A stretch of DNA of 8,722 nucleotides from Magnetococcales bacterium (GTDB lineage: Bacteria > Pseudomonadota > Magnetococcia > Magnetococcales > JADFWU01). Position numbers and translations under genes: made by a program. Every line of letters begins with the position of its first letter. Within the stretch, counting starts at the first letter, position 1. Below are positions 1 to 8,722 of the stretch, one piece after another. The stretch lies in assembly GCA_015234045.1 (NCBI GenBank), contig JADFWU010000083.1, forward strand, positions 1 through 8,722. The letters are read 5' to 3'. The notes under the pieces were generated by a model. It saw only the letters and a list, made by a program, of their open reading frames with translations. It had not been told where the DNA came from and searched no databases.

Positions 1-693
1 ACCGGTGGTTCTGGGGCTAGTAATGGGGTAGCTGATGCCAGTGGATCTGGATCCAGAAGAGAAGCAGGGGACGCCACCAGTGGTGATGGTGTTTCTTCAG
101 ATTCTGGTGGTGCTGGTCCTGGCGCTGGTAGTGAAGAGTGGGTGACACAGACGGAGTTTGCCAAACGTCGGGGGTGTGACCGGTCTTTGATATCCCGGTG
201 GGTGAGTAATGGAAAGATCCCTGCTGGTGCGGTACGGCGGAAGGGTCGGGCATGCCATATCAACTTTCAGGCTGCTATGGCGGCATTGGAAGATAATCTG
301 AACGGTATACAAGGCGGAAACCGGGCGGAACAGGCTGAAACAGGGGGTAAGGGGGATTCACCAAAGGCTGGTAACCAGGTGGTGGATGAACCACCGCGTA
401 CAGGCTCCTTACGGCATAGCCAAGAGCGTATTCAAATGGCCAGGGCAGACCGGGCAGAGATAGAACTTAAACGTGAAGCGGCTAAGTTGATTCCAGTAAG
501 GAAGGTGGAGAAGCCAATGTTTACCGCCTTTCGTTTGTTGCGTGATCAGGTGATGAGCCTGGGGACAAAGATTGCTGGTCAATTAGCGGCTGAAACGGAT
601 GAGAAAGCAATTTCCGAACTTGTAGAGAATGAAGTTAGATTGATGTTTCGAGAGGTTGAGACCGGCCTAAAAGGGACGGCGGATGTCTCTTGA
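1..693 (+). CDS. terS: Phage terminase small subunit (Nu1-like), 5' end open at window edge
   Basis: Likely the DNA-recognition subunit that binds the packaging site and recruits the large terminase. The frame is open from base 1. Codons 1-47 encode a Gly/Ser/Ala/Asp-rich stretch with strongly coding-like codons (GGT, GCT, AGT, GAT), followed by SEEW and then a winged-helix/HTH-type segment at about 145-222 (TEFAKRRGCDRSLISRW), matching the N-terminal DNA-binding region of lambda Nu1. Bases 400-690 encode a charged helical region (RADRAEIELKREAAKLIPV, then an LLRDQVMSLGTKIAGQLA-type helix) typical of the family's C-terminal part. A GTG at 142, with a weak purine-rich stretch before it, would give 183 residues, close to Nu1's length, and is the alternative start. 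I prefer a longer protein with a flexible N-terminal tail whose start lies left of the window. It overlaps the large subunit gene by 11 bases. Family is confident; the start is not. Confidence 0.8.
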   Translation, partial: TGGSGASNGVADASGSGSRREAGDATSGDGVSSDSGGAGPGAGSEEWVTQTEFAKRRGCDRSLISRWVSNGKIPAGAVRRKGRACHINFQAAMAALEDNLNGIQGGNRAEQAETGGKGDSPKAGNQVVDEPPRTGSLRHSQERIQMARADRAEIELKREAAKLIPVRKVEKPMFTAFRLLRDQVMSLGTKIAGQLAAETDEKAISELVENEVRLMFREVETGLKGTADVS

Positions 694-2647
694 GGAAATC
701 AGTCAATATTTCAAAGGTGAAAAGGATGTCATAGACATCATTATCCGGGCAATTCGCCCTGATCCAGTCATGACCGTATCGGAATGGGCGGATAAGTACC
801 GCTGGTTATCAGCCAAGGACACACCAGAACCAGGGCGTTGGACCACAGCACGGGTACCGTATTTGAGAGAGATTATGGATTGTCTCTCTCCTGCATCACG
901 AATACAAAAAGTGGTGCTAATGAAATCAACCCAAATCGGATTCACAGCGGGCATTATTGGCAACGCAATTGGTTATTACGTTGATGCTGTACCGGCACCA
1001 ATCATGGTGGTGCAACCAACAGAAAAAGCGGCAAAGAGATGGAGCAAACAACGGCTGTCACCACTCATCCAAGAGACTCCAAGGCTAAGAGAAAAGATAT
1101 CCGGAAATAGTCGGGATGGCGGCAACACCCTTTTACTGAAGGACTTTCCAGGCGGATTCATCAATGTCGTTGGTGCGAACAGCCCAACAGATCTGAGTTC
1201 AACACCAACCCGGATCATGTTGTTAGATGAGGTAGACCGGTATCCCTGGGATGTAGATGGAGAAGGGAACCCAATCATCCTTGCTGAGAAACGAACCAGT
1301 CGCTTCAAAAGTAATAAGAAAATTGTGATGGGGTCAACGCCAACCGGCGAGGGTGTAAGCCACATTGCATCCCATTTCCGGCAGACAGATCAGCGTTATT
1401 ACCACGTACCATGTCCCTATTGTGGTGGCATGCAGCCGCTGGATTTCGAAAATCTATCTTGGATAGAAGGTAAATCTGAATCTGTCCGGTACAAATGTCG
1501 AGAGTGTGAAAAAGAGATACCGGAATCCTACAAAGGCATGATGCTGGAGAATGGGCAGTGGGTAGCCAGTCAACCGGATCTGTACGACGGCAAGACAGCC
1601 GGGTATCACCTCAACGCGCTGTATGTGCCGCTGGGGTGGGATCCAGGATGGTTTGAAATCCTTGAGGAGCACCGTAAGGCGGTGAAAGAGGAAGAGGCTG
1701 GTGATCCTGGATTTCTTTATGGATTCGAAAATACCGTCCTGGCCAAAACCAGTAAGCGCAAAGGTGAGGGTAGGCCAGATCGTGAAGAGCTTGAGAAGCT
1801 GACCGAGCTTTATCAAAACGATGCTGCGGACATGCCGTCCAAAGCGCTGAAATTAACCATGGGCGTGGACACCCAGAATGACCGCTTGGCGGTAGTGGTA
1901 CGGGCTTGGGGTCCGGGAATGGAATCCTGGCTAGTCTATTGGGATGAGTTGATTGGTGATCCCAACGAAGATGAAGTGTGGAAACAGTTATCGGTATTGA
2001 TAGACCGTGGATGGGAACACCCGTCCGGCCAATCGATACAGGTGTCATCGGTAAGCATTGACTCTGGTGGCGGACGCACACAAGCGGTTTATGAATATGC
2101 CAGATTGACACAACCGTTGGTGGCGGCCTGTAAGGGTGCCAGCACCTATGGAAAGCCAGTCTTCGGACGTGCCAGTGATGTTGATGTTCGGTGGGATGGA
2201 AAGGTAAGGAAAGGTGCAGTCAAGCTGTATCAAATCGGTACGGATACAGCCAAAGACATTATCTATCAGCGTTTGCAAAAAACGTTGAATTCAGAAAGGG
2301 TTTCACTAGCTGGTGTGTACCATTTCTATGATGGTGTTGGATCTGACTATTTCAAACAACTGACGTCAGAGATCAAAGTCCCGATCTACAGCGGCAGAAG
2401 AAAGCAGGAGAGATGGACAGTTCATCCAACAGGGGCCCGGAATGAGGCGCTTGATTGTGAGGTGCTGGCGCTGGCTGGTGCTTATCGGTTGGGTATCCAT
2501 CGTTGGGATGAAAATCGGTGGGCATCCGAAGCGGCTGAAGTGCTACAGCCAACCTTGATGGATGTGGTTGATGATGGTCGTATTGAGAGGCTCATGAAGG
2601 CCAACAGTAACAAGAAGCGGCGGTCAATCCGTCGGAAGCGAGGATAG
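683..2647 (+). CDS. terL: Phage terminase large subunit, GpA family (ATPase and nuclease)
   Basis: Motor and nuclease that cuts concatemeric DNA and pumps it through the portal into the prohead. The 654 residues match the usual length of the GpA family (lambda gpA is about 640). Visible motifs: a deviant Walker A, KSTQIGFT at residues 81-88; Walker B LLDEVD at 180-185; a coupling motif GSTP at 217-220; a probable zinc-binding pair CPYC (C244, C247) and CREC (C272, C275); and nuclease-domain acidic residues in GVDTQND (D396), SIDSGGG (D460) and NEALDCEVLALAGA (D591). The basic C-terminal tail (KKRRSIRRKRG) could contact DNA or the portal. The ATG at 683 has AAGGGA six bases upstream (671-676) and lies inside the end of the small-subunit gene, so translation is probably coupled. 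All key motifs are intact and I see no frameshift. The family call is very secure. Confidence 0.96.
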   Translation: MSLEEISQYFKGEKDVIDIIIRAIRPDPVMTVSEWADKYRWLSAKDTPEPGRWTTARVPYLREIMDCLSPASRIQKVVLMKSTQIGFTAGIIGNAIGYYVDAVPAPIMVVQPTEKAAKRWSKQRLSPLIQETPRLREKISGNSRDGGNTLLLKDFPGGFINVVGANSPTDLSSTPTRIMLLDEVDRYPWDVDGEGNPIILAEKRTSRFKSNKKIVMGSTPTGEGVSHIASHFRQTDQRYYHVPCPYCGGMQPLDFENLSWIEGKSESVRYKCRECEKEIPESYKGMMLENGQWVASQPDLYDGKTAGYHLNALYVPLGWDPGWFEILEEHRKAVKEEEAGDPGFLYGFENTVLAKTSKRKGEGRPDREELEKLTELYQNDAADMPSKALKLTMGVDTQNDRLAVVVRAWGPGMESWLVYWDELIGDPNEDEVWKQLSVLIDRGWEHPSGQSIQVSSVSIDSGGGRTQAVYEYARLTQPLVAACKGASTYGKPVFGRASDVDVRWDGKVRKGAVKLYQIGTDTAKDIIYQRLQKTLNSERVSLAGVYHFYDGVGSDYFKQLTSEIKVPIYSGRRKQERWTVHPTGARNEALDCEVLALAGAYRLGIHRWDENRWASEAAEVLQPTLMDVVDDGRIERLMKANSNKKRRSIRRKRG

Positions 2648-2866
2648 ATGGCTATCACTCTCCAACAGGCAAAAGAGAAACTACAAATCTGGTTGGATGC
2701 AGAAGAGCGGATAGCGGTGCATGGTCAGTCTGTCAATGTCGATGGTGATGATCTTAACCGGGCAGATCTCAAGCAAGTAGCCGCAAGAATCGTATATTGG
2801 GAAGGCAAAGTGAAACAGCTATCTGGAAAACGGCGAGGGATGCGGATGTTGGGAGTAGTGCGGTGA
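2648..2866 (+). CDS. gpW-like head-tail joining protein
   Basis: A 72-residue protein, about the size of lambda gpW (68 residues), in the exact lambda position between terminase large subunit and portal. In that family gpW binds the filled head below the portal and prepares it for tail attachment. The sequence has an N-terminal helix (ITLQQAKEKLQIWLDAEERI), a central turn-like segment (VHGQSVNVDGDDL), and a second helix (LKQVAARIVYWEGKVKQL) with a basic tail, which fits the helix-hairpin-helix plan of gpW. The ATG directly follows the TAG stop of the terminase gene, with AGGA just upstream at 2640-2643. Its TGA overlaps the portal's GTG start by four bases. The call rests on size, position and pattern, since the sequence is short. 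Confidence 0.85.
   Translation: MAITLQQAKEKLQIWLDAEERIAVHGQSVNVDGDDLNRADLKQVAARIVYWEGKVKQLSGKRRGMRMLGVVR
2851..2865 (+). promoter_or_regulatory. Ribosome binding site and GTG start of the portal gene
   Basis: GGGAG at 2851-2855 lies seven bases before GTG at 2863-2865. That GTG overlaps the gpW stop in the form GTGA. An in-frame ATG at 2797 would extend the protein 22 residues into gpW. The extra residues (MGRQSETAIWKTARD...) do not look like portal sequence, whereas NFIDRLVSAISPEAGLRRL after the GTG does. Confidence 0.7.
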
Positions 2867-4389
2867 ATTTTATTGATCGTCTCGTATCGGCTATTTCTCC
2901 TGAAGCGGGTTTGCGTCGTTTGCGTGCTCGGCATTTTATGGGCCGAATAGAAGCCTATGCCGGTGGCAATCATTACCATGGTGCCAACCGTCGGGATAAG
3001 GCCATGCGTGGCAAGCGGGCCTCCAATGCCGATGCTGATACAGCGTTAAGCGGTGATCTCGAAGAGTTGCGGAACCAATCGAATCGATTAATCAGAAATG
3101 AACCGCTAGCAACCGGTGCGATTCGAACCGCTGTCAATTCCGTAATCGGGCCAGGTCTCCGGTTACAGTCCAATATCAACCGGCGTTTAGTTGGGTTGGA
3201 TGCGGATCAAGCTGAAGCATGGCAACGAAAAGCAGAAGATCTGTTCACCGTTTGGGCCAACAGTACCGATTGCGATATCACCAAAACCAACACCTTTGCC
3301 GGTCTTCAGGCTTTGGTGTTTCGGTCAAAGTTAGTCAGTGGTGATTGCTTTTCACTGCTGTCAGATCGGGCCGGTGGACATCCGTTTGATTTGGCCGTCC
3401 AGGTGGTTGAGGGACACCGAGTCAGTACACCACGTGGAGAGAAGGATGGACCACAACTGAACCAGGGCGTTGAAAAGGATCAACACGGTGCGCCAGTGGC
3501 CTACCATGTTTCCACCATGCATCCAGGATCAGCGCATAACAGAAACAAAGCGGATTGGGTACGGATTCCGGTTCGGCAAGCTTCCCGGCGGGTAATGTTG
3601 CATCACTACCAGCAGTTAAGGCCGGGACAGACAAGAGGGGAACCGTTTCTTTCACCGGTGATTTATGCCTTTTCGCAATTGGGCGATTACACCAAAGCGG
3701 AACTGGAAGCGGCGGTCGTCTCGGCGTTTTATACCGTATTTCTGAAAAGTGAGGAGTTGGAAGCTGATGAACTGGCGGATGGGATTAAACAGACTGCTGA
3801 TGCCGAAGCTAAAGCGGCTGGTTTGGACGTGGGTAATAACGAAGTTCACCTCAAAAGGGGCGGGGTTACTGTCCTTGGTCCGGAAGAGTCTATTGAAATA
3901 GCCAATCCAGGAAGACCAAACGCGCTGTTTGATCCCTTCGTGAACGCCATCATCATGCAGATCGGCGCGGGCTTGGGCATTCCACAAGAGGTTCTGACCA
4001 AGAGTTTTAAGGCGTCCTATAGCGCTGCAAAGGCGGCATTGCAGGAGGCTTGGCAGGTCTTTAACACATGGCGTCACTGGATGGCGGATTCCTTTTGCAG
4101 ACCAGTTTATGAAGCCTTCATCACCGAACAGGTTTTGACAGGTCGTCTGTATGCACCAGGCTTTTTGACTGATCCGATTGTAAGGCGTGGTTATTTGGGA
4201 TCTACCTGGATTGGATCACCAATGCCGCAACTGGACCCACTCAAAGAGGCTCAAGCGGCAGAGAAGCGGATGGATGTTCTAAAGCTCACCACACACGCTG
4301 AAGAATCAGCCGCGCTAACCTGTTTACATCCGCTATCAACCACCACCGTTACCACCCAAGGTAAGCGGATTGGAACTCATGCCGGATGA
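2863..4389 (+). CDS. Lambda-family phage portal protein, C-terminus replaced at a deletion junction
   Basis: The portal forms the ring at one head vertex through which DNA enters and to which the tail attaches. Recognisable segments of the lambda gpB family, from the GTG at 2863, include an N-terminal LRNQSNRLIRNEPLATGAI block and VNSVIGPGLRLQ. RPGQTRGEPFLSPVIYAF follows near residues 253-270. GAGLGIPQEVL lies near 368-378, and YSAAKAALQEAW, the highly conserved family motif, near 386-397. PMPQLDPLKEAQAAEKRM comes near the end. Family members continue for roughly 25-60 residues past this last block with an acidic helical tail. Here, after about residue 485, the frame reads CLHPLSTTTVTTQGKRIGTHAG and stops. 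Another frame of the same bases encodes a J-like tail protein, so the last 23 or so residues are out-of-frame readthrough. The core is otherwise intact. The family is secure, but function is doubtful because the C-terminus is lost. Confidence 0.92.
   Translation: MNFIDRLVSAISPEAGLRRLRARHFMGRIEAYAGGNHYHGANRRDKAMRGKRASNADADTALSGDLEELRNQSNRLIRNEPLATGAIRTAVNSVIGPGLRLQSNINRRLVGLDADQAEAWQRKAEDLFTVWANSTDCDITKTNTFAGLQALVFRSKLVSGDCFSLLSDRAGGHPFDLAVQVVEGHRVSTPRGEKDGPQLNQGVEKDQHGAPVAYHVSTMHPGSAHNRNKADWVRIPVRQASRRVMLHHYQQLRPGQTRGEPFLSPVIYAFSQLGDYTKAELEAAVVSAFYTVFLKSEELEADELADGIKQTADAEAKAAGLDVGNNEVHLKRGGVTVLGPEESIEIANPGRPNALFDPFVNAIIMQIGAGLGIPQEVLTKSFKASYSAAKAALQEAWQVFNTWRHWMADSFCRPVYEAFITEQVLTGRLYAPGFLTDPIVRRGYLGSTWIGSPMPQLDPLKEAQAAEKRMDVLKLTTHAEESAALTCLHPLSTTTVTTQGKRIGTHAG
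4305..4322. other. Inferred deletion junction: portal 3' end joined to J-like tail gene
   Basis: Left of this point frame 1 encodes portal sequence up to about TTHAEESAALT. Right of it frame 2, open only from 4319 after a TAA at 4316-4318, encodes PVYIRYQPPPLPPKVSGLEL, characteristic of the C-terminal third of lambda J-type tail proteins. All genes normally lying between portal and J are missing. The exact breakpoint is uncertain by several bases, and the size of the loss cannot be read from this window. Confidence 0.75.
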
Positions 4390-4744
4390 TGTCTACGGTG
4401 GCGGTGGTGGTCTATCCACTGAATGGACCGGTAAGGATGTTGGTATCCAGTGGCGGCATGCCAGGGCGGTTGGTGTTGAAGAGCTTGGTGAAGAGGCGTT
4501 CGGGGCTGGTGATGGTGGTTTAGATCCAGAGTTCAGGGATTATCAAATTGTCATTCTTGATTCCCAAGAAAGAGAATTACGTGAAGTGCATACGGTTGAA
4601 AATCGATTTTCCTATACCTATGAAATGAACAGACTGGACTATGGACGAATTAATGGGTCGGTTGGTGCAAACCGCGCTTTGATCGTTAGGGTCTGGGTGC
4701 GTGGACGTCAGAATCAACTGTCTGAGGAGTATGCAGAGCTATGA
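4319..4744 (+). pseudogene. J-like tail-tip (host specificity) protein fragment, N-terminus deleted
   Basis: J-type proteins form the tail tip and mediate host recognition in lambda-like phages. This piece encodes about 141 residues. PPPLPPKVSGLEL leads into LSTEWTGKDVGIQW, then FRDYQIVILDSQERELREV, FSYTYEMNRLDY and LIVRVWVRGRQNQLSEEYAEL. These are the linker and fibronectin-III-like segments found near the C-terminal part of the family. The first several hundred residues are missing, and the frame opens just at the deletion junction. An independent start is possible but poor: TTG at 4370 or ATG at 4379 (MPDDVYGGGG), neither with a good ribosome site, and both cut into the conserved SGLEL block. 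The frame ends in ATGA shared with the next gene. The match is from family pattern memory, not a search. Confidence 0.7.
4724..4743 (+). promoter_or_regulatory. Possible ribosome site and ATGA stop-start overlap inside the split J-like gene
   Basis: GAGGAG at 4724-4729 lies 11 bases before ATG at 4741, which overlaps the TGA of the upstream frame. The downstream frame could therefore be translated by coupling, although the spacing is longer than usual. The same sequence is equally explained by loss of one base in a once-continuous gene. Confidence 0.45.
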
Positions 4745-6816
4745 TTACAAATCCTGCACCATCAATGGCTGTTGTAACAGTCGTGCCAGGTTATCGCCAG
4801 TTAACAATCAACCATACGCTTGGTGATGACCTTGATTATGAGGGTATCATTGTTGCGCTGTCCGTCACATCACCAGTCAATATTGTCTCTGATAGGGCCT
4901 ATAAGGGCAGAGACAGTGCTGTTGTGTTGACTGAGGATGGTAATGGACAACTGATTGCTGCGAACACTACCTACTATTATCGTGTAGCGGCGTATGATGC
5001 ATTTGGTGAGGACGAAATTGTTTGGACCGGAGAGTTGTCTGTCATGACCTTGGACGATACGCCATTGATAAACAGTAACCAGCAATGGGCCGATATTAGC
5101 GGAACCGGAAAACCTGATGATCATGCTGATGTTACTGGCAGTAATACCGCTGCTGATACTCTGCGAGTTGGTGATGAACTGGCAACCGATGTCCGGGACT
5201 GGGCGTCCGATCCGCTGGTTCGTGCAAATGGCCTATCCACCCTGCTTGGCACGAATAAAGTTCATCTTGACGGTGGGTTGACGCTGGATAATTGGCAGGA
5301 CTCAATTAACCCGGTTGCGCTATTTGGTGGGGCTATCGCCGATGAGACGATAACAGCGGATCAAATAGCCGCTAATGCTATCACTACCGGCAAGATAACC
5401 GCGAATGCCATCACGGCGGCACAAATCGCTGCTGGTCAGGTTGGTGCTGACAAGTTATCTGCAAATGCTGTAACTGCTGACAAAGTGGCTGCTAACGCCA
5501 TTGTAGCCAGCAAAATAGCCGCTTTACAGATTACAACCGAGCACCTGGGTGCTCATGCTGTCACCTCACAAAAAATAGAAACCAACGCAATCACTGCTGA
5601 CAAGATCTCGGCAAATACCATCACTGGTGATCATCTGGCAGTTTCCACCATCACCGCTGATAATATTGTTGCAAGCACCATTACAGCCGATGAAATCGCC
5701 TCAAGCACCATCACCGGCCTGGAGATTGCCGACAGCGCCATTGGTGATAGCCACGTTGGCATCAATACTCTAAGTGCGGACCGTCTGTTGGGTGGATCCA
5801 CCATGACTGGTGTAACCGCTCAAACCAGTTCGAGCGCTACGGATCAGCGAGTTATTATTACGCCAACAGGAGATGATGGTGGGGAGTTGCAGGTTTTTGG
5901 TGATCGAGGTGATGGTGTAAATGAAGAGCTAGTTAGTATGGGGGTGCGTGGATCTGGTGATAGACACATAGTTGCTATTGGTAGTTCAAATTGTTCTCAA
6001 ATAGGATTGGACGTAAAAAACAACGCCACTGATAGGTCTGCCGCTAATTTTTGGAACGAAACTGGAATAGCAGTTCAGGCATTCTCAAACTCTACTAGCA
6101 AGCCAGCAATTTATGGTAGTAATCCAGCTAAGGGAATAGGGGTAAGTGGGCAGGGATATGTTACAGGCACTGGAGTTGTAGGAGATGTTTTAGGCTCAAG
6201 CCAAACCCAAGGGCAGGGCGGCATTGGAGTGCTTGCACGTGTCAGAAATGATGGGTTGGATCTAAGCACGGCTTTAGTTGCAGAGCACAATTCAGATACT
6301 GGTGTAGCTATATCTGTACCAAAGGGATTGGTAGGTATTGGCACCGATACCCCACTTGCTAACCTGCACATCAAATCTGGTGACTCTGGCCTCACCGCTC
6401 CAAGCTCTGAAGCTGACGCCTTTGTCATAGAGGGGGGTGACACTACTGGCATGTCGATCCTGGCTCCAAACGCAGCCAGTACGATCATCTATTTTGGTGC
6501 TTTAAGCGATAAAACTGGAGCAATGATCGGTTGGCGACATTCGACAAAACGTATGCAGATAGGGACACGAAACGGATCGGGATACCTGATTTTACATACT
6601 GCTGATAATGTTGAGGCATTGCGGATCGATAAAGACCAGAATGTTGGCATCGGCACAACAACACCTACTGAAATACTCTCTGTAAACGGTCGTGTTCATC
6701 TCTCCAACCAAACAGCTCCAACAACACCAACCGGTGGTGGAATTCTGTATGTCGAATCCGGTGCATTGAAATATATCGGGTCCAGTGGCACCGTCACAAC
6801 CATAGCACCAGCGTAA
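4741..6816 (+). CDS. Tail fibre-like protein continuing the J-like gene, with decapeptide repeats
   Basis: A 691-residue protein built of modules. Residues 1-105 look like a fibronectin-III-type domain (NPAPS, then TYYYRVAAYDAFGEDE), normally internal to J-like tail proteins. Residues 205-344 are 14 tandem ten-residue units of the form TADKIAANAI, which probably make an extended fibrous shaft. Residues 345-530 are Gly/Ser/Val-rich with GIGVSGQG and GTGVVG turns, suggesting a beta-rich fibre. Two VGIGTxTP units (near residues 531 and 635) and a GGILYVESGALKYIGSSG end are typical of tail-fibre and appendage C-termini. The likely role is host-surface contact at the tail tip. The missing J N-terminus and the frame break at 4741 make it doubtful that it is displayed on a particle. 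There is no signal peptide or membrane segment. Module identification is good; receptor specificity is unknown. Confidence 0.85.
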   Translation: MITNPAPSMAVVTVVPGYRQLTINHTLGDDLDYEGIIVALSVTSPVNIVSDRAYKGRDSAVVLTEDGNGQLIAANTTYYYRVAAYDAFGEDEIVWTGELSVMTLDDTPLINSNQQWADISGTGKPDDHADVTGSNTAADTLRVGDELATDVRDWASDPLVRANGLSTLLGTNKVHLDGGLTLDNWQDSINPVALFGGAIADETITADQIAANAITTGKITANAITAAQIAAGQVGADKLSANAVTADKVAANAIVASKIAALQITTEHLGAHAVTSQKIETNAITADKISANTITGDHLAVSTITADNIVASTITADEIASSTITGLEIADSAIGDSHVGINTLSADRLLGGSTMTGVTAQTSSSATDQRVIITPTGDDGGELQVFGDRGDGVNEELVSMGVRGSGDRHIVAIGSSNCSQIGLDVKNNATDRSAANFWNETGIAVQAFSNSTSKPAIYGSNPAKGIGVSGQGYVTGTGVVGDVLGSSQTQGQGGIGVLARVRNDGLDLSTALVAEHNSDTGVAISVPKGLVGIGTDTPLANLHIKSGDSGLTAPSSEADAFVIEGGDTTGMSILAPNAASTIIYFGALSDKTGAMIGWRHSTKRMQIGTRNGSGYLILHTADNVEALRIDKDQNVGIGTTTPTEILSVNGRVHLSNQTAPTTPTGGGILYVESGALKYIGSSGTVTTIAPA
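5353..5793 (+). repeat. 14 tandem 30-bp coding repeats (decapeptide TADKIxANAI), plus a partial 15th
   Basis: Starting at ACA 5353 the protein reads in exact ten-residue steps: TADQIAANAI, TTGKITANAI, TAAQIAAGQV, GADKLSANAV, TADKVAANAI, VASKIAALQI and so on to GDSHVGINTL ending at 5772. A partial SADRLLG follows. The fifth and tenth positions are always aliphatic (I, L or V), and T-A-D often opens the unit. At DNA level the units have diverged, so the repeat is conserved as protein rather than as recent duplications. Confidence 0.9.
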
Positions 6817-6828
6817 CAGGATTGAGCA

Positions 6829-7170
6829 ATGGGACAGTATCTTGAAGGGTCGGTGGGTCTTGTTAATGGCAGTGCCACTGTTACTGGCACTGGGACTGCT
6901 TGGATGTCCAAAGTTTCTGTTGGTGATCTATTTAGAGTAATTGGAGTAAATGCAACGTATCAGGTTGGTGGAGTTACTACAGACTCTGAGTTGCAATTGA
7001 CCGCACCATGGGCCGGTGCGGACCTAACAGGCGCTACCTATCTGATTCACCGTGATTTTACCTCACCAGATAGTATCCCATTGCTAAACAAGGGGGATAT
7101 TGAAAGTTACGCCATTTTGAATCGGGCATTGAATCAGATCCAAGATAGGCTGTCAGAGCTATCTGTTTAG
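6829..7170 (+). CDS. Small phage tail or fibre-associated protein
   Basis: A 113-residue protein starting at ATG 6829, with AGGA at 6818-6821 seven bases upstream and 12 bases after the fibre gene stop, so it is in the same operon. The pattern GSATVTGTGTAW, then VGDLFRVIG, YQVGGVTTDSELQL, WAGADLTGATYLIHRDF is a small beta-sandwich-like module that I recall at the ends of phage tail and neck-appendage proteins. The C-terminal part (IPLLNKGDIESYAILNRALNQIQDRLSEL) is helical and could form a short coiled coil or trimerisation stem. The position suggests a fibre accessory or a short fibre subunit. I cannot assign an exact role. It is the last rightward gene before the convergent integrase. No clear terminator is visible in the 35 bases between them. 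Confidence 0.7.
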   Translation: MGQYLEGSVGLVNGSATVTGTGTAWMSKVSVGDLFRVIGVNATYQVGGVTTDSELQLTAPWAGADLTGATYLIHRDFTSPDSIPLLNKGDIESYAILNRALNQIQDRLSELSV

Positions 7171-7205: not shown

Positions 7206-8402
7206 TTAATGATTAGTGTTCTTTGCCAAACCATCTAAATGATCTGCCCAATCTTGCATCATCTTCCGGCGTTCATCCAAATACTGGCTACGATTGTAGG
7301 CCGCGCGTACTTTGTTCCGCTCCTCGTGTGCCAACTGGCGCTCTATCACATCCGCTCTATATCCCATCTCATTTAATACAGTCGATGCAACCGCTCGGAA
7401 ACCATGTCCTGTCATGCGTCCATGGTATCCGAGCCGGTACAGTGCATAGAGTGCTGTATTTTCGCTCATTGGCCGTTGAGGTGAGCGGCCAGCAAACACC
7501 CATTCAAACATCCCGTTCATCTCCTTCAATTGCTCAAGGATAGTGACCGTCTGATGGGCCAGCGGTACAATATGGGCGTCTCTCATCTTCATTCTCTGGG
7601 CTGGAATGCGCCAGATCTGGCTGTTGAGGTCGATTTCATCCCATGTTGCAAACCTCATTTCACCCGTTCGGACAAAAGTCAAAGCCAGGAATTTTAATGC
7701 CAGCTTGGTCTGTAGGTCACCAGCGGCCGCACAATCATAATCCTCAATCTTGGCCAGGAGAATTGGTAATTCTGAAGGTGGAATGGCCTTTTGATGTTGG
7801 ACTTTATGTGGTTTGAGTGCGCCTTGCAGGTCACCAGCTGGGTTGGCCTCACAACGTCCGGTAATGATGCCGTATTTAAAAATGTTGGAGATGGTGCCAC
7901 GCATCCGCTTAGGCAGATCCACGGCACCGCGGGCTTCAATCGCTCTTAATGCCTCAAGAACTATCATTGGTTTTATGTCGGTGATTTGTTCTTGGCCAAA
8001 CGCTGGATAGATATCTCTAGCAAGGCGGCCAGATACGGTCCTGTAGTGCCTTTCTGTCCACCGGCCACGTTCATTTTGTAACCACTCCTCGGCGATGGCC
8101 ATGAACGAGTTTTCAGCTTCTAAATTTGCCTTAATTTTCTCTTTCTTACGCTCTTCTGATGGATCAATTCCATCGGCCAATTGTCGGCGGATCTGATCGC
8201 GTCTCTCTCTGGCCTCCTTCAGGCTGACTTCCGGGTAGATTCCGAGCGATAATAATTTTTCCAAGCCGTTGATTCGGTACTTAATCCGCCAACGTTTCGA
8301 GCCTGCTGGTGTGACTTGAATATACAAGCCTCCACCATCAAAGATTTTTTGTGCTTTGGTCTTTGGTTTCAGATTTCGAAGTTTTGCGTCTGAGAGCGGC
8401 AT
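7206..8402 (-). CDS. int: P4-type tyrosine recombinase integrase
   Basis: Catalyses site-specific recombination between the phage attachment site and the host tRNA-Leu end, and excision in the reverse reaction. It has 398 residues, normal for the P4 integrase family. The N-terminal arm-binding domain (DUF4102 type) spans about 1-90 (MPLSDAKLRNLKPK, FDGGGLYIQVTPAGSKRWR, LSLGIYPEVSLKEAR). A core-binding SAM-like domain follows at about 95-200. The catalytic domain at about 205-385 carries R245 (FVRTGE), K272 (MKMRDAHIVPL), H333 and R336 (TGHGFR), H359 (QLAHE) and the nucleophile Y369 (AAYNR), so the full set is present. The start codon at 8402 has only a weak AAGG ten bases upstream, within or next to the G5TAA repeats. 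It is convergent with the tail genes and 165 bases from the tRNA. It looks functional. Confidence 0.96.
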   Translation of the reverse strand: MPLSDAKLRNLKPKTKAQKIFDGGGLYIQVTPAGSKRWRIKYRINGLEKLLSLGIYPEVSLKEARERRDQIRRQLADGIDPSEERKKEKIKANLEAENSFMAIAEEWLQNERGRWTERHYRTVSGRLARDIYPAFGQEQITDIKPMIVLEALRAIEARGAVDLPKRMRGTISNIFKYGIITGRCEANPAGDLQGALKPHKVQHQKAIPPSELPILLAKIEDYDCAAAGDLQTKLALKFLALTFVRTGEMRFATWDEIDLNSQIWRIPAQRMKMRDAHIVPLAHQTVTILEQLKEMNGMFEWVFAGRSPQRPMSENTALYALYRLGYHGRMTGHGFRAVASTVLNEMGYRADVIERQLAHEERNKVRAAYNRSQYLDERRKMMQDWADHLDGLAKNTNH

Positions 8403-8567: not shown

Positions 8568-8595
8568 TGGTGCCCGCGCCCGGACTCGAACCGGG
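8568..8595. other. Inferred prophage attachment site in the tRNA-Leu 3' end
   Basis: The T-arm and 3' acceptor strand of the tRNA face the integrase, the usual geometry for P4-type integration, where the phage restores the tRNA 3' end. The second copy expected at the other prophage end is not in the window, so the core boundaries are inferred only. Confidence 0.5.
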
Positions 8596-8653
8596 ACGAT
8601 CTAAGATCAGCGGATTTTAAGTCCGCAGCGTATACCAATTTCGCCACGCGGGC
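8568..8653 (-). tRNA. tRNA-Leu (UAA anticodon)
   Basis: Class II tRNA of 86 nt including an encoded CCA (TGG at 8568-8570 on the plus strand). The acceptor stem GCCCGCG/CGCGGGC pairs perfectly. The D arm is GCG/CGC. The anticodon stem is GCGGA/TCCGC with loop CTTAAAA, placing anticodon TAA at 8617-8619. The long variable arm is GATC-TTA-GATC, and the T arm CCCGG-TTCGAGT-CCGGG. It decodes UUA, and UUG by wobble. It appears complete and functional in spite of the neighbouring prophage. Confidence 0.96.
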
Positions 8654-8684
8654 AGTGCAGGAAAGATCGATATTTCATCGACTG

Positions 8685-8713
8685 ATCACACGGTAATGAA
8701 TATAGCGGTTCAA
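8685..8713 (-). promoter_or_regulatory. Possible sigma70 promoter of tRNA-Leu
   Basis: On the minus strand TTGAAC (8708-8713) and TGTGAT (8685-8690) are separated by 17 bases. Each matches its consensus at four of six positions. The start would fall about 25 bases before the tRNA 5' end. The match is weak and part of the upstream region is outside the window. Confidence 0.35.
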
Positions 8714-8722
8714 GGCAAATAT

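Follow-up and report, generated by a model that had tools for sequence, protein, structure and literature searches.

A lambda-family portal gene joined out of frame to the end of a J-type tail fibre gene: a probable deletion in a defective prophage of a Magnetococcales bacterium

The window analysed here, an 8,722-nucleotide stretch of DNA from a Magnetococcales bacterium (GenBank assembly GCA_015234045.1, contig JADFWU010000083.1), is an entire contig of 8.7 kb, designated C99. The draft genome to which it belongs (3.65 Mb, 117 contigs, 93% complete) looks like a metagenome bin. The contig carries phage packaging, portal and tail fibre genes, followed by an integrase gene and a tRNA-Leu gene of opposite orientation (Table 1). 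The reading frames of the terminase, adaptor, fibre and integrase are all open. A left neighbour of the contig was sought through end overlap and was not found.

Table 1. Features of the analysed contig and the evidence for their assignment
Feature	Position	Strand	Evidence or remark
Terminase small subunit	1..693	+	PHROG 57, E 3.4e-24; 5' end lost at contig edge
Terminase large subunit, 654 aa, frame intact	683..2647	+	GpA_ATPase 1.6e-88, GpA_nuclease 8.3e-74
Head-tail adaptor	2648..2866	+	DUF6148 / PHROG 118
Lambda family portal protein, minus last ~40-50 residues	2863..4317	+	Phage_portal_2 3.4e-94
Frame-1 continuation into DNA derived from J, 23 residues then stop	4318..4389	+	Unlike portal C-termini
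Breakpoint interval	4318..4342		Portal homology ends at 4317, frame-2 J homology by 4343
Headless C-terminal fragment of J-type central tail fibre, frame 2	4343..4744	+	tblastn matches in Vibrio phages VF16 and pVp-1; prophage J of genome G164
Tail fibre, T5 pb4 position	4741..6816	+	ATGA overlap with J stop; alignment with G164 J
Small tail-fibre-related protein	6829..7170	+	PHROG tail fibre families
Tyrosine integrase, frame intact	7206..8402	-	Phage_integrase 4.9e-23, plus arm-binding and central domains
tRNA-Leu(taa), probable attachment site	8568..8653	-	ARAGORN; integrase adjoins its 3' end

The portal protein covers positions 2-354 of the 354-position Phage_portal_2 model (PF05136; 316 bits, cut-off 32.9), and its PHROG portal match corresponds to residues 1-483. 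In pairwise alignments with four relatives the homology fades near residue 485, i.e. at nucleotide 4317, in good agreement with the earlier note on this DNA, which had read frame 1 as portal up to about 4318; only the alignment with Escherichia phage 473R2 extends weakly to residue 497. The 23 residues encoded in frame 1 beyond nucleotide 4317 are unlike the portal C-termini of relatives. When scored in register against these C-termini they gave values of +1 to -34, phage 473R2 being the sole marginal case (shuffle p 0.013). The portal gene has neither a complete C-terminus nor a head maturation protease gene behind it.

Frame 2 is open from position 4315, after a stop at 4312-4314. It holds the 141-codon frame that follows the portal, with TTG 4370 or ATG 4379 as candidate starts of the encoded fragment. 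Pfam and PHROG searches of this fragment gave no match. By tblastn it matches the C-terminal ~110 residues of the central tail fibre J proteins of T5-like phages (E 4e-6), the match in pVp-1 comprising residues 830-936 of 947. A profile built from five T5-like J ends led to its best relative, the 1060-residue J protein of a prophage in genome G164; residues 512-625 of this protein match the segment at 38% identity (E 2e-23). The proposal that frame 2 encodes a J-family segment, which the earlier note had begin at 4319, is thus well founded, J homology being present from 4343 at the latest. Frame-2 residues 9-20 (nt 4343-4378), situated upstream of the first ATG, lie within this contiguous homology (score 36, reached in 0 of 100,000 shuffles), and such a continuation of the J register shows that the DNA at 4343-4378 formerly lay inside a J gene. 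The window retains the C-terminal fibronectin-like domain of J proteins and lacks their N-terminal hub region, the part assigned to PHROG 31 and PHROG 5616 (residues 192-497 and 4-545 of G164 J, respectively). The number of N-terminal residues missing from the fragment ranges from ~510 in comparison with G164 to 830 in comparison with pVp-1. When viral contigs were searched for close kin, the fragment recovered distant J relatives only, and the adjacent large fibre none.

The four-base overlap between the J stop and this fibre gene is identical in pVp-1 and VCPH, and residues 2-104 of the fibre align with residues 631-729 of G164 J (E 7e-8). T5-like phages naturally have a J C-terminus followed by a fibre gene that overlaps it by ATGA, so the arrangement to the right of the junction is undisturbed. 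The small protein encoded further downstream is 35% identical (E 8e-19) to the product of the G164 fibre gene located just behind J. The earlier lambda-based description can be refined in one respect: the J fragment is closest to T5-like and G164-type proteins, and the gene that follows it corresponds in position to T5 pb4 and not to a lambda gene.

Because portal homology ends at 4317 and J homology in frame 2 has begun by 4343, the breakpoint lies inside 4318-4342, a narrower interval within the 4290-4390 region to which the junction had been assigned. Codon statistics also require one switch from frame 1 to frame 2, loosely at ~4364-4389, the frame-1 values remaining positive until ~4360. 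We gave more weight to homology than to codon statistics, whose resolution is poor and which place the switch somewhat later.

The gene order expected behind such a portal was examined in 96 relatives whose portals are at least 35% identical and which have enough flanking DNA; many of these relatives are closely related Pseudomonas prophages and are not independent. In all 96 the portal is 38-59 residues longer and a head maturation protease is encoded within 1 kb, and in none is J located within 3 kb of the portal. Relatives from Vibrio, Escherichia, Sulfurimonas, Sinorhizobium, Lachnospiraceae and the same bacterial order agree on the portal-protease succession. A conserved alternative gene order was rejected after a test in 101 loci, and no relative shares the truncated portal and the gene order of the window as a conserved arrangement.

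In G164 ~11 kb lie between the end of the portal-type gene and the matched position in J, and this interval encodes a protease, cement, capsid-like, tail tube, tape measure and distal tail proteins as well as the J N-terminus. In Sinorhizobium phage phi3LM21, whose portal is of lambda type, the probable J gene lies 8.9 kb beyond the portal end, and our estimate adds ~1.5 kb of J to this distance. The missing span, which starts with the protease and takes in the first ~510 residues of J, may accordingly be estimated at ~10-11 kb. As the earlier note had claimed for the genes that lie between portal and J in the lambda order, none of the head and tail-tube genes found in relatives, from the protease through the tail tip, is present on the contig.

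Two homologies are thus truncated at one junction, the reading frame changes between them, and the gene order interrupted there is conserved in relatives. We consider it probable that the window derives from a defective (cryptic) prophage residing beside tRNA-Leu, with one internal, out-of-frame deletion. The locus has the composition of such an element: an integrase gene beside the tRNA gene, terminase and portal genes kept, and head and tail-tube genes gone. Illegitimate recombination would have linked the portal gene, ~40 codons short of its end, to a position ~510 codons into J, out of frame, with the removal of the protease/scaffold, decoration, major capsid, connector, tail tube, tape measure and tail-tip genes (presumably ~10-11 kb). 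A single deletion is favoured because one event accounts for both broken genes while the other frames are intact. The earlier proposal of one deletion behind both the truncated portal and the headless J is also supported by the finding that each half is shorter than its counterpart in all intact relatives, the intervening genes being gone. Since the other genes of the contig look intact, the lesion seems to be single and fairly recent. The element would no longer be able to build particles by itself. Deletions are a common prophage defect (PMC2669165). The portal and J have different nearest relatives, which counts against a deletion within a single prophage, and no close relative that retains the missing segment was found.

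The main alternative, which we regard as considerably less probable although by no means negligible, is an assembly join, whereby two pieces of a single prophage, or of a related pair, would have been merged when a metagenome was assembled. A chimeric join would look identical, the contig is short and stands alone in a draft of 117 contigs, and the presence in the bin of a second tRNA-Leu(taa), 81% similar, could mean that the contig comes from another organism. However, the window contains no Ns, and the genome contains no repeat at the junction long enough to mislead an assembler (the best is 31-33 nt at 85%, E 0.03). Searched against the genome, the junction DNA, its portal part and its J part each proved to be single-copy. 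Neither the lost portal end nor the lost J start was found on other contigs. Nothing in the sequence favours such a join. Whether a deletion or an assembly join, the finding is an ordinary one.

Searches of the genome for the missing genes covered capsid-E, the protease and J. The first gave no match and the second only a weak one, to a 226-aa frame on another contig (C41). The genome's only J-like region elsewhere (C76, positions 1-2034) is a second prophage J that runs from the contig edge, shares 34% identity with the G164 J over the N-terminal half of the latter and has a different C-terminus. This gene was considered as the missing start of the window J and rejected, as it belongs to another prophage and its C-terminus differs.

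The existence of at least one other prophage J in the genome also bears on an unlikely third explanation, recombination between two different prophages, by which the portal of one was joined to the J of the other. Among phages, many of the portal's nearest relatives are myophages that carry sheath and baseplate genes, while the J part belongs to the siphophage type. Against this, the gene set of phi3LM21 suggests that non-contractile tails, too, can go with lambda-type portals, the genes to the right of the junction all stand in their natural order, and the J on C76 differs at its C-terminus from that of the window.

It is highly improbable that the locus represents a selected, functional compact element, e.g. 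a satellite that retains packaging and fibre genes, in which the portal ends naturally at 4389 and a short fibre gene begins at 4379: the portal stop does overlap that ATG tightly and the frame-1 codon statistics are positive almost to this point, but J homology reaches upstream of the ATG, the arrangement occurs in no relative and the portal tail is unlike that of any of them. Equally hard to credit is a stripped-down satellite whose terminase, portal and fibre genes are under selection and which obtains its head and tail from a co-resident helper prophage.

A defective prophage with an internal deletion has counterparts among the cryptic prophages of E. coli O157 Sakai (PMC2669165), which likewise kept an integrase and some late genes and lost particle genes through deletion. 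They belong to another host and phage lineage, and the contig described here displays a single clean junction as the sole lesion seen. Vibrio phage X29, Escherichia phage 473R2 and Sinorhizobium phage phi3LM21 share with the window the order terminase, small adaptor-size gene, portal (the latter ~40% identical), but in these phages the portal is complete, and protease, decoration and capsid genes come after it. Vibrio phage pVp-1, with its T5-like J/pb4 pair, has in common with the window the C-terminal J domain and the ATGA overlap with the next fibre gene, whereas the window lacks the N-terminal part of J. Annotation should flag both the portal and the short J fragment as truncated, and the contig should not be treated as an intact prophage. 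Beyond annotation the case has little import, although it is a clear example of two genes broken at one junction.

Between positions 5335 and 5770 the large fibre gene contains a run of roughly twelve short ITADxIAANAIT-type repeats, as in many tail fibres. These repeats are probably behind its weak matches to unrelated families, and a weak PADLOC match to the fibre was discounted as a probable effect of repeat composition.

One copy of tRNA-Leu(taa) is usually expected. The bin contains two, the region 8568-8722 of the window being 81% alike to C106:51161-51316 over the gene and its upstream region; the contig may thus derive from a different organism, or a duplicated tRNA gene may be the site of the prophage.
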